Below, one piece after another: positions 29-63,883 of a stretch of DNA of 64,000 bases. The position numbers and the translations under genes were made by a program. The notes under the pieces are model-generated. The model saw only the letters and a list, made by a program, of their open reading frames with translations, was not told where the DNA came from and ran no database searches. Source of the stretch: Hamadaea sp. (GTDB taxonomy: Bacteria > Actinomycetota > Actinomycetes > Mycobacteriales > Micromonosporaceae); the NCBI RefSeq assembly GCF_013362815.1, contig NZ_JABFVK010000044.1, positions 1 through 64,000 of the forward strand, in the 5' to 3' direction. Numbering within the stretch: position 1 is the stretch's first letter; every line of letters starts with the position of its first letter.

Positions 29-210
29 CGCGTTATCCCGGGATAACGCGGCCTTCCAGCGCGAGAAGGGGACGTCATCCCGGGACAACGCGATGATCAT
101 GCCCGGGACGCCAGCGATCATGCCCGGGACGCCCAGCGATGATCATGCCCGGGGACGCCGGGGAGGATCACGCGCGGGACCCCCAGGGATGATCGTCGGG
201 GCCGTCGGCG
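29..210. repeat. Intergenic repeat cluster: palindrome plus ~23-bp tandem units
   Basis: Positions 29-50 are a perfect 22-bp palindrome with core TTATCCCGGGATAA flanked by CGCG. A degenerate copy (CGTCATCCCGGGACAACG) follows at 73-90. From about 91 to 210 there are five or six imperfect tandem units of roughly 23 bp built on GATGATCATGCCCGGGACGC, decaying to the right. The same palindrome recurs near 9.6 kb and 44.37 kb, and the GATGATCATG unit recurs at 44.43 kb. I see no gene in 1-244. The cluster lies just past the 3' end of the monooxygenase gene. Confidence 0.8.
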
Positions 211-38517: not shown

Positions 38518-39831
38518 TCACCAGACGGTGTGCAGCAGGTGGTTGACGAGCAACGCCGTAGCCGCCTGCGCCACGAGCCACAGCTTCGGCCGGGGCAGCA
38601 GAGCGGCCGCGGCGGGCAGCCAGATCGCGAAGGGCAGCCAGATGCGTTCGACCTCCGCCTTGCTGAGGCCGGACAGGTCGGCCACGACGATCGCGGCGAG
38701 CGCGCCCAGCGCGAGGATCGCGACCGGCGCTGTCTTTTCTTGCGGCAGATCAGGGTTCTGGGTCGAATCTTGCCCCATGATTCGACCCAGAACCCTGATC
38801 TGGTTCGTAGAAGCGAGACGGGGGAGTGCGGCGTACCCGGCAGGCCCGATGCTGAAGGCGAGGGCGGCGAAGTTCGCCCAAGCCCAGTACCAGTAAGGGC
38901 GGAGCGAAGCGATGCCCTGGTAGTAGCGGATGCGTACCAGGGAGTAGCCGTCGAACCACCAGAAGCCGGCCAAGGCGAACCCGGCGACCGGCAGCAGCGC
39001 GCCGCCGGACGCCCAGAGGAGCGGTTTCCATCGCCGCGCCGCAATGGCGACCGCGACCGCGAGGAACGCCATCAGGACCAGGCCGTACGACAGGAACACG
39101 GCGAATCCGAAGAGCACCCCGGCCAGCACCGTCCACAGTGCCCGTCCAGTGGCGAGCAAGGCGACCGCGACCGAGGTGACGCCGAGGAAGAGGCCGTCGC
39201 CGGAGACGCCGACCCATACTGCGCCGGGGAAGAGCACGACGAACGGCACGGCGGCTCGTGCGATCTCGCCCGAGCCGAGCGAGCGCAGCGCCGACGGGAC
39301 CGCCACGGCGGCGAATGAGCCTACCGCGATGCACGTGAGCGCGGCGGCGACTCCGCCGGAAAGGCCCACCCGGTCGAGCACCGCGAACACGAGCAGGGCG
39401 CCCGGCGGATGTCCGGCCGCTTGGGTGTTCCAGGAATCGGGCTGGAAGTCGAGGATGCGGTCGGCGTACCCGTGGATCATCGCGGGGATGTCTCCGGCGC
39501 TAGGCAACGCCGCGAGGTACTCCGCGTCGACGGTCAGCCGGGTGGCCACCCCGTGGTTCCAGCCGTCCACCATCGCCAAGCTCAGCGTCCAGCCGAACGC
39601 GGCGACATAGGACACCGCGAGCAGGCTCCGCCACGGCAGGTTCCGGGGGAACGCGAAGATCACCAGCAGTGCGATGAGGATGGCTGGAACGGTGCCCGGC
39701 CCGGTATGCGGAATCCAATGCGCGTACAGGGGTGCCGCAGCGGCTTGAACGTCGACCTGCCGCCCCACCACGATGGCCGCGCCGACCAGGACGGCGGCTC
39801 CGCACAGGACGAGGAGCTCAGCCCGCCGCAA
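38518..39831 (-). CDS. GT-C-type polytopic glycosyltransferase (mannosyltransferase-like)
   Basis: 437 aa with about eleven membrane helices. ILDFQPDSWNTQAAGHPPGALLVF carries the HPP motif of lipid-linked sugar transferases, and YYQGIASLRPYWYW and SGLSKAEVERIWLPFAIW are further landmarks. Residues 344-362 are encoded exactly by a 57-bp perfect hairpin element (38746-38802) that keeps the frame. The TTG start at 39831 overlaps the epimerase gene by 14 bp; no better start exists between it and the first Met at residue 70+. It probably transfers a sugar from a polyprenyl carrier at the outer membrane face. Confidence 0.75.
   Translation of the reverse strand: MRRAELLVLCGAAVLVGAAIVVGRQVDVQAAAAPLYAHWIPHTGPGTVPAILIALLVIFAFPRNLPWRSLLAVSYVAAFGWTLSLAMVDGWNHGVATRLTVDAEYLAALPSAGDIPAMIHGYADRILDFQPDSWNTQAAGHPPGALLVFAVLDRVGLSGGVAAALTCIAVGSFAAVAVPSALRSLGSGEIARAAVPFVVLFPGAVWVGVSGDGLFLGVTSVAVALLATGRALWTVLAGVLFGFAVFLSYGLVLMAFLAVAVAIAARRWKPLLWASGGALLPVAGFALAGFWWFDGYSLVRIRYYQGIASLRPYWYWAWANFAALAFSIGPAGYAALPRLASTNQIRVLGRIMGQDSTQNPDLPQEKTAPVAILALGALAAIVVADLSGLSKAEVERIWLPFAIWLPAAAALLPRPKLWLVAQAATALLVNHLLHTVW
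38746..38802. repeat. Perfect 57-bp hairpin element inside the GT-C gene
   Basis: Two 24-bp arms (left arm begins CAGATCAGGGTTCTGG and ends GTCGAATC) are perfect inverted copies around the 9-nt loop TTGCCCCAT. The element is 57 bp, a multiple of three, and adds 19 polar residues to an otherwise hydrophobic protein. A diverged copy lies in intergenic DNA at 50571-50625, so this is a mobile or repeated element and not part of the ancestral gene. Confidence 0.88.
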
Positions 39832-40810
39832 ACTCCGCCATCCCTTGCTCGAACGGAACGGCGGCGTGGAAGCCGAGGTCGGCCGCCGCCCGGGCGGGGG
39901 AGGCGACGATATGCCGGACGTCGCCCGCCCGGAACTGCCCGGTGACCACCGGATCGGGTCCGGCCATGACACTCGACAATGCGGCAGCGAGATCGCCTAC
40001 AGTGCGGGGTACGCCGGACGCGATGTTGAACGCGCGGAACGGTTCCGCGTTCGAGCGGTCCAACCAGGACAGTGCGGCGACGTTGGCGGCGGCGACGTCG
40101 CGTACGTGGACGAAGTCGCGGCGCTGGCCGCCGTCCTCGAAGACCCGGGGCGCCTGTCCGGCGGCCAGCGCCGACCGGAAGATCGCGGCGACTCCGGCGT
40201 ACGGGGTGTCGCGGGGCATCCCCGGTCCGTAGACGTTGTGATAGCGCAACGCCGCGCATCGGCTGCCCGACGCGTGGGCCCACGCCGATGCGAGGTGCTC
40301 CTGCGCCAGCTTCGTGGCCGCGTACACGCTGCGCGGATCGAGCGCCGCGTCCTCGTCGATCACCTCCGGCGTCACGGGCGCGCCGCACTGCGGGCAGGTG
40401 GGCTCGAACCGGCCGGCGGTCAGGTCCGGCTCGTGGCGCACCCGGGCGCGCACCGGTCCATGGTCACCACACGTGTACGCGCCATCGCCGTACACCACCA
40501 TGGAGGAGGCGAGCACCAACCGGCGTACGCCGTGCCGGGCCATCGCGGCCAGGAGAACCGCCGTGCCCAGGTCGTTGCAGCCCGCGTACTCGGGAAGGTC
40601 CTGCAGGTCGACGCCGAGTCCGACCATGGCGGCCTGGTGGACGACGGCGTCCACGCCCGACACCGCCCGGTCGACGGCCGCCGGGTCTCGCAAGTCCTCG
40701 CCGCTGGGCAGCGCCCGGTCGAAGACGCGTACGCCGTGCCCGGCCGCGGTCAGCTGATCGACGACGGAACAGCCGATGAACCCGGCCCCGCCGGTCACGA
40801 GAACCTTCAC
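39818..40810 (-). CDS. NAD-dependent sugar epimerase/dehydratase with zinc-ribbon insert
   Basis: 330-aa extended SDR. GGAGFIG at residues 7-13 binds NAD; catalytic set Ser in LVLASSMVVYGDG (about 103) and YAATK (163-167). Between them is an unusual insert with C114, H117, C139 and C142 (TCGDHG ... TCPQCGAP), a likely zinc ribbon absent from GalE or RmlB. Family members make UDP- or GDP-sugars. It is first in an operon with the GT-C gene and divergent from the GT2 operon, so it may supply the sugar donor. Confidence 0.83.
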   Translation of the reverse strand: MKVLVTGGAGFIGCSVVDQLTAAGHGVRVFDRALPSGEDLRDPAAVDRAVSGVDAVVHQAAMVGLGVDLQDLPEYAGCNDLGTAVLLAAMARHGVRRLVLASSMVVYGDGAYTCGDHGPVRARVRHEPDLTAGRFEPTCPQCGAPVTPEVIDEDAALDPRSVYAATKLAQEHLASAWAHASGSRCAALRYHNVYGPGMPRDTPYAGVAAIFRSALAAGQAPRVFEDGGQRRDFVHVRDVAAANVAALSWLDRSNAEPFRAFNIASGVPRTVGDLAAALSSVMAGPDPVVTGQFRAGDVRHIVASPARAAADLGFHAAVPFEQGMAEFAAG

Positions 40811-44363: not shown

Positions 44364-44437
44364 GCGACGTATCCCGGGATAACGCGGCTTTGTCGGCGAT
44401 CTAAGCCGCGTCATCCCCGGATCTTGCGATGATCATG
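44364..44437. repeat. Third copy of the palindromic repeat, between convergent genes
   Basis: CGACGTATCCCGGGATAACG (44366 on) carries the TATCCCGGGATAA core; CGCGTCATCCCCGGATCTTG is a degenerate second copy; GCGATGATCATG (44426-44437) is the tandem unit seen at 91-160. Palindrome and GATGATCATG unit thus occur in the same order and orientation as at the left edge. The right part overlaps the last nine codons of the YCII-like gene. Confidence 0.7.
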
Positions 44438-50547: not shown

Positions 50548-50570
50548 CGGCCGCAGCAGGGATCTGCGCC

Positions 50571-50625
50571 GGATCACGGATCTCGGTCGAATCTCGGACC
50601 AAGATTCGACCCGGAACCCTGATCC
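50571..50625. repeat. Diverged intergenic copy of the hairpin element
   Basis: 24-bp arms (left begins GGATCACGGATCTCGG) around a 7-nt loop pair at 21 of 24 positions. The right arm shares GATTCGACCC-GAACCCTGATC with the perfect element at 38746-38802. It lies after the alcohol dehydrogenase stop and could also act as a terminator. The rest of 50548-50720 shows nothing else. Confidence 0.8.
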
Positions 50626-50720
50626 AGCGCGAAAAGGCGGGCGCGAAAGGCGGCGGGCGTGATCTGCGGCATACGAGAGCGCGGTAGCAAGACGGACGTA
50701 CGGTTTGTTACGCTGCCCGC

Positions 50721-63818: not shown

Positions 63819-63883
63819 GCTGCAGATCACGGTTACGCATGCTTCCCGCCCGGGATTTGGCCTGCGTAACCGTGATCTGCAGC
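63819..63883. terminator. Long-armed hairpin between convergent genes
   Basis: GCTGCAGATCACGGTTACGC (63819 on) and its exact complement at 63863-63883 form 21-bp perfect arms around a 23-nt loop. It lies 10 bp after the subtilase stop and 17 bp before the end of the next, convergent gene. The arms are longer than a terminator needs, so it may be another repeated hairpin element. Confidence 0.65.

Follow-up and report, generated by a model that had tools for sequence, protein, structure and literature searches.

REP-like hairpin elements behind genes in Hamadaea: several high-copy families, family change at orthologous positions and occasional in-frame copies

A hairpin element found in a 64,000-nt stretch of Hamadaea sp. 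DNA (the window), designated family A, is high-copy in three of four genus members, and 296 other members of the Micromonosporaceae stand at background. Its copies are concentrated directly downstream of genes and within convergent gaps, are under-represented in divergent gaps and are rarely coding; beside it there are four or more additional hairpin families (the set is named A, variant C, B, D, E and F). We consider it rather probable that family A is part of a REP-like hairpin system in Hamadaea that works without RAYT, with turnover of families at slots located at gene ends. By their behaviour the Hamadaea hairpins are best filed as REP-like, and not as members of the named REP, REPIN-RAYT or RPE families. 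In the following, G000 denotes the window's own genome, and G001, G002 and G003 the other genus members, with one assembly per species.

The window hairpin (Table 1) had been described in a first-pass annotation as a pair of perfect 24-bp arms around a 9-nt loop. Positions 38746-38769 and 38779-38802 are indeed exact reverse complements, and with one mismatch tolerated the arms extend to 27 nt, separated by a 3-nt spacer. RNA folding of the hairpin region (81 nt) yields -49.5 kcal/mol (z -9.55), a value reached by 0 of 200 shuffled sequences. A 23-nt arm pattern with at most 3 mismatches has three matches in the window versus 0.00 expected from 100 shuffles, two being the arms of this hairpin and the third an arm of the copy at 50567-50630. 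This confirms the diverged copy noted earlier at a distance of 12 kb, since an arm matches there where shuffling predicts 0.00. One of the two outer ends of the window copy comes within 1 base of the end of family B.

Counting from the first GTG of the minus-strand frame 38518-39972, the element supplies residues 391-409 of the host gene product, or residues 344-362 if the gene starts at 39831, as proposed by our own gene caller. A simple hydropathy scan finds hydrophobic segments at 255-318 and 413-440, to either side of the element (391-409). Pfam assigns no family to the host gene at E 0.001; the designation GT-C glycosyltransferase stems from the first-pass annotation. Orthologues of the host gene are present in all three other genus genomes searched (G001, G002, G003).

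Table 1. Positions of hairpin elements and of the host gene in the window
Feature	Position	Strand	Basis or remark
Family A hairpin element, profile match	38743..38804	.	nhmmer 2e-19
Left arm, 24 nt, perfect, CAGATCAGGGTTCTGGGTCGAATC	38746..38769	+	inverted-repeat comparison
Centre, 9 nt (3 nt with one mismatch tolerated)	38770..38778	+	
Right arm, 24 nt, reverse-complementary to the left arm without mismatch	38779..38802	+	
Membrane-protein gene holding the family A element in frame	38518..39831	-	own gene caller; open frame to 39972
Second family A copy, 19 bp past the left-hand gene	50567..50630	.	profile match
Family B hairpin at the window's right edge, 10 bp from the left-hand gene	63820..63882	.	
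Family F hairpin	44371..44422 (or 44366-44422)	.	hairpin scan
Family F hairpin (GCGTTATCCCGGGATAACGCGGC)	30-92		adjoins tandem arrays at 75-217

A search of the whole genome for further copies, as proposed by the first-pass annotation, revealed a dispersed repeat: an 18-base arm pattern with at most 3 mismatches has 213 forward and 213 reverse matches in G000, and the reversed control has 0/0. The corresponding counts are 112/110 in G001, 193/190 in G002 and 3/3 in G003 (controls 0 to 2), and 0-6 matches per direction in the 296 other genomes of the Micromonosporaceae. G003 is otherwise at background and holds a single degenerate A-like palindrome (G003:C8, about 127149-127205, E 1.4e-6), perhaps a relic. 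An exact degenerate hairpin pattern recovered 51 stretches from the GTDB collection, from which close relatives of the window's genome are possibly absent, all of them in Hamadaea sp. isolate Bin8.36.

The sample read closely consists of the window and 80 further stretches of G000, together 1,656,277 bases (22% of the genome); the other 78% was covered by pattern only. An element profile finds 66 family A copies in these 1.656 Mb and 0 in the reversed sequence; the two weak matches among them are C28:92939 (E 4e-8, termed variant C) and C20:86022 (E 0.008). Scaling from the sample gives a genome total of about 300 at most, a density biased upward because contigs were picked for length and for listed copies on them, and the arm count points to 213 or slightly more. 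The elements are 57-65 bp long, with the consensus GCGCTGGATCAGGGTTCTGGGTCGAATCTTG-3 nt-CAAGATTCGACCCAGAACCCTGATCCAGCGC. At the gathering score, Rfam reports only a tRNA at five family A loci. The hairpin sequence strings are absent from the open-licence PMC papers searched, and among the Hamadaea papers in open-licence PMC no title refers to repeats.

Placement was assessed with genes called by our own codon-usage caller, against a null of random positions in the same gaps (2000 draws). According to the gene call, 58 of the 66 family A copies are intergenic, 4 lie inside genes and 4 overlap gene ends; judged by midpoint, 59 are intergenic and 7 are not. Convergent gaps hold 24 copies versus a null mean of 9.0 (sd 2.7; largest draw 20), divergent gaps 7 versus 19.1 (smallest draw 6). 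Where a stop neighbours the copy, it is at most 30 bp away for 38 of 52 (null 20%, largest 42%), the median distance from the stop being 18 bp, and in tandem gaps 26 of 28 copies lie closer to the stop than to the start (null 50%, largest 89%). Family B shows the same tendency, with 17 of its 43 copies in convergent gaps (null 6.3) and 1 in a divergent gap (null 13.2).

Bacterial stem-loops generally prefer convergent gaps and the 50 bp following stop codons (PMC1590033), and family A shares both preferences. In contrast to such stem-loops, and to terminators, it is a high-copy sequence family without a T-tract. Enrichment in convergent gaps, the short distance to stops, the strong symmetric hairpin and the sharing of slots between genomes (see below) might all be expected if the elements were selected bidirectional transcription terminators, resembling each other because a good terminator was copied. 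However, the flanks of 63 copies have the wrong polarity, being T-rich before the hairpin and A-rich after it, with T at 0.03-0.16 over the 12 following positions; family A thus has no T-tract and was rejected as an intrinsic terminator. Near-identity across about 50 bp moreover exceeds the needs of termination, and one G001 copy adjoins an ordinary hairpin. A terminator origin therefore seems unlikely to us.

The first-pass annotation had also claimed a 57-bp insertion in frame within a protein-coding gene. Comparison with homologues bears out an insertion that keeps the frame: in G001 the orthologue has the element at the same site, and in G003 it has none. The G003 gene differs in the flanks as well, so that its size gap deviates from 57 bp. 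The annotation had named presence in all orthologues, or a lack of further genomic copies, as grounds for abandoning its reading; one orthologue is free of the element, and further copies are abundant. In G001 the search match contains one stop, and an open frame of 489 residues spans the element. In G002 contigs stop on both sides of the site, which is itself uncovered.

Two further conserved genes are comparable. In an ABC exporter (C49; PF00664, PF00005) the element lies inside the ABC_tran match in G000, in G001 and, diverged, in G002, and the G003 exporter is without it. In Lnt (PF20154, PF00795) the element is present in G001 and G002, with none in G000 and G003. Lnt was rejected as a clean insertion: G000 has no element yet retains flank-like residues (AVSAKPM vs DVSADPL), which makes loss in G000 as likely as insertion. 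The element is read in the same frame in the host gene, the exporter and Lnt. Among 56 copies of exactly 65 bp, this shared frame is open in 56/56 plus-strand and 55/56 minus-strand readings, a second frame in 40/56 and 46/56, and the third in 0.

A strict coding-through test, which demands that both flanks are coding and in the same frame, is passed by 1 of 66 family A and 0 of 43 family B copies in the sample, versus 853 of 909 random stretches of strong genes. Beyond the sample, 1 more copy passes among 30 distinct ones in G000 loci (with a laxer cut), and in the relatives' loci 2 of 71 distinct copies do, namely those of Lnt and of the ABC exporter in G001. The test misses the copy in the G001 orthologue of the host gene and thus undercounts. 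Several other candidates were considered. The copy at C30:83518, inside a called gene of 1137 aa, was discounted because it fails the strict test and faces a degenerate B hairpin in G001; C44:25400 was discounted because of a weak gene call. The copy at C28:80279 lies inside a gene, uses another frame and fails the strict test; from its motifs we take this gene to be subtilase-like. The copy at C32:46959 sits near a gene start.

Rickettsia palindromic elements (RPE) are described in PMC2229807 as palindromes of 105-146 bp with an open frame, inserted in frame in conserved genes. Family A resembles them by its in-frame insertions in conserved protein genes (the host gene, the ABC exporter and Lnt). 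It differs in its length of 57-65 bp and in that coding copies are a small minority, and is set apart from RPE by this published description. The first-pass annotation had favoured a selfish RPE-like palindrome adapted to life inside protein-coding genes. In favour of this view, three unrelated genes hold in-frame copies, each read in the one frame that is open in nearly all copies. Against it stand the strict test (1/66 for A, 0/43 for B, both undercounts) and the 58 of 66 copies that are intergenic by gene call. We regard such an adaptation as improbable, and the view that coding insertion is the characteristic lifestyle of the element is not supported, with 1 of 66 copies passing the strict test and most lying just after stops. 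The small number of coding copies and the majority following stop codons are better explained by a REP- or REPIN-like element that occasionally sits in frame within a gene than by an RPE counterpart.

Within the element, positions 7-11 (GATCA) are invariant in 56/56 copies. At 12 positions variable on both arms, pairing is only marginally above chance, at 521 versus 498.0 under the null (sd 6.7, null maximum 519), a statistic that takes no account of relatedness among copies; the excess is clearest at positions 5, 6 and 15, with none at 2, 19, 22 and 30. The invariant GATCA and the lack of co-variation at position 19 would suit putative binding sites of an architectural DNA protein, with selection acting on sequence and not on the fold. 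The strong bias towards gene 3' ends, together with interiors that differ at the same slots, argues to the contrary, and we hold this to be highly improbable.

All 117 family A arms in the 1.656 Mb sit in compact hairpin elements. A transposon with family A ends was therefore rejected, no arm lying outside compact elements in this sample, and no autonomous element with such ends occurs within the 22% of the genome read. Carriage by mobile elements was rejected as well: viral contigs yielded 0 exact arm matches, and plasmids and phages 0 matches to a 69-base query. No target-site duplication is readable at the sites compared, where the flanks are too diverged. Like a MITE, the element has terminal inverted repeats and is geneless; unlike one, family A has neither a parent element nor a target duplication that we found. 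Derivation as MITEs from a conventional insertion sequence, with terminal inverted repeats of 24-31 bp, would account for these repeats and for the copy number, but the compactness of all 117 arms, the missing viral, plasmid and phage matches and the absence of a visible duplication render it distinctly unlikely.

REP-like repeats are usually attributed to RAYT transposases. RAYT as the mover of family A was rejected, as PF01797 is absent from the four genus genomes (one of them 87% complete; controls positive in 5/14). Family A resembles REPIN-RAYT systems in that a pair of inverted arms forms one hairpin as a unit, as do all 117 arms, and differs from them in that searches for RAYT found a Y1 transposase (PF01797) in 0/4 genus genomes.

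REPs are short palindromes in high copy of which several families may coexist (PMC3733652, PMC3116915). PMC3733652 describes palindromes of 20-40 bp, a preference of GTAG and CGTC REPs for gene ends with occasional intragenic copies, CGTC REPs without a dedicated transposase, and two Xanthomonas recB genes with different REPs at about the same site. Family A shares with REPs the high copy number, the position just 3' of genes in convergent as well as unidirectional gaps, and the occasional intragenic location. In contrast, the Hamadaea elements lack the GTAG/CGTC tag and form one near-perfect hairpin of 57-65 bp instead of 20-40 bp, the families often change at orthologous slots, and the host is an actinobacterial genus, Actinobacteria being unmentioned in PMC3733652. 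At the two ends of 63 copies, GTAG occurs 1 and 2 times and CGTC 2 and 1 times, and the complementary tags CTAC 0 and 0 and GACG 2 and 3 times.

Scanned for hairpins whose arms measure 20 nt, the sample yields 88; two of its contigs yield 32, versus 0 in a first-order Markov control. Families A to E have GATC-bearing ends in common. Family B (CTGCAGATCACGGTTATGCATGCTTCC) has 43 copies distinct from A (17 convergent, 23 tandem, 1 divergent, 1 inside, 1 unclear), and its arms number 62/59 in G000, 70/67 in G001 and 37/35 in G002, with none in G003 or in 77 other genomes. With at most 4 mismatches allowed, the 1.656 Mb contain 39 family F arms (control 0). By eye, C30:56305 appears to be mosaic, one half resembling C and the other B.

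The arms of family D (CGTTGATCATGAACCTAGGGTT) number 81/94 in G000, 2/0 in G001, 4/3 in G002 and 0/0 in G003, with a few in seven other genomes, and a related arm occurs in 21 of 121 genomes and 7 of 44 genera. D-type arms (GTTGATCATGAASTTAGG, at most 1 mismatch) reach up to 46/42 per genome in some genera of the Micromonosporaceae (g11, g17, g20 and g24 were noted) and were not found in 37 of 44. Copies of family D frequently extend over the final bases of adjacent called genes, and the family also forms inverted pairs of about 148 bp (C28:115444-115591, C28:77163-77310, C83:41266-41413), which we take to resemble BIMEs.

Family A copies of the relatives were aligned to the G000 sample at base level, and loci aligned over less than 40% were dropped. 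At the G000 sites corresponding to 12 distinct G002 copies we found A at 6, B at 4, variant C at 1 and F at 1, i.e. another family at 5 or 6 of the 12 depending on whether variant C is counted as A. This comparison is silent on sites empty in G002, since the sites were chosen for carrying A there. Of three G001 copies, two are A in both genomes and one (L131) is without a counterpart, its G000 site having an ordinary hairpin only.

For G000 and G001, 148 adjacent conserved gene pairs were defined by reciprocal best hits, including gaps of at most 20 bp. A or B occurs in both genomes in 8 gaps, in G000 only in 1, in G001 only in 0 and in neither in 139, the L131 copy being outside this table. 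Slots are thus shared (Fisher 1.9e-12; 0.004 for convergent gaps alone, 2 of 22), and the family differs in 4 of the 8 shared gaps. Likewise, 15 A or B copies on three G000 stretches meet the same family in G001 in 5 cases, another family in 5 and no hairpin in 3, with 2 unmappable. The sites empty in G001, which argue against lasting occupancy of the slots, are C30:46791, C30:56305 and C120:63820 (the family B hairpin at 63820-63882), the last two being poorly aligned. For the window's second family A copy (50567-50630), the orthologous G001 gap holds a family B hairpin. Since the same slots carry different families in these comparisons, families change at shared positions. By eye, tandem duplications of roughly 11-17 bp, comprising the outer end of the hairpin and its flank, are seen at C30:46791, C30:83518 and C5:63832, and look like replication slippage at the hairpin base.

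To explain the REP-like system, we propose that a trans-acting enzyme other than RAYT may copy the hairpin and so spread it, and that one family may replace another at a resident hairpin through insertion or recombination. Copies at gene ends may persist since a strong hairpin is harmless, or even useful, for the mRNA 3' end. The copy in the host gene may have persisted as the commonly open frame fell in register, adding a polar stretch between hydrophobic segments.

A more specific hypothesis, which we put forward tentatively and consider less probable, takes certain gene ends as lasting hairpin slots, where the palindrome is kept across species and the family is exchanged wholesale. Exchange might proceed by recombination or by targeted copying that recognises the shared GATCA...TGATC ends, independently of RAYT, and the few hybrid copies as well as the in-frame copies might be by-products. 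Judged by the six outer bases, a B-like end is present in 7 of 66 G000 copies (one being variant C) and 3 of 71 copies of the relatives; this criterion was preferred to a two-base one for hybrid ends (16/66), which was set aside. A interiors with one clear A-like and one clear B-like end amount to 3 of 66 in G000 and 2 of 71 in the relatives. Such hybrid-ended copies are few, which counts against an exchange through shared ends and lowers the odds of this hypothesis.

Several high-copy hairpin families, a change of family at slots and no detected Y1 transposase pose the question of what else copies hairpins. The same lineage makes it testable whether host or element keeps the hairpin behind a gene. 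Finally, the in-frame copies represent natural insertions of some 20 residues in conserved proteins, and relatives free of the element are available for comparison.
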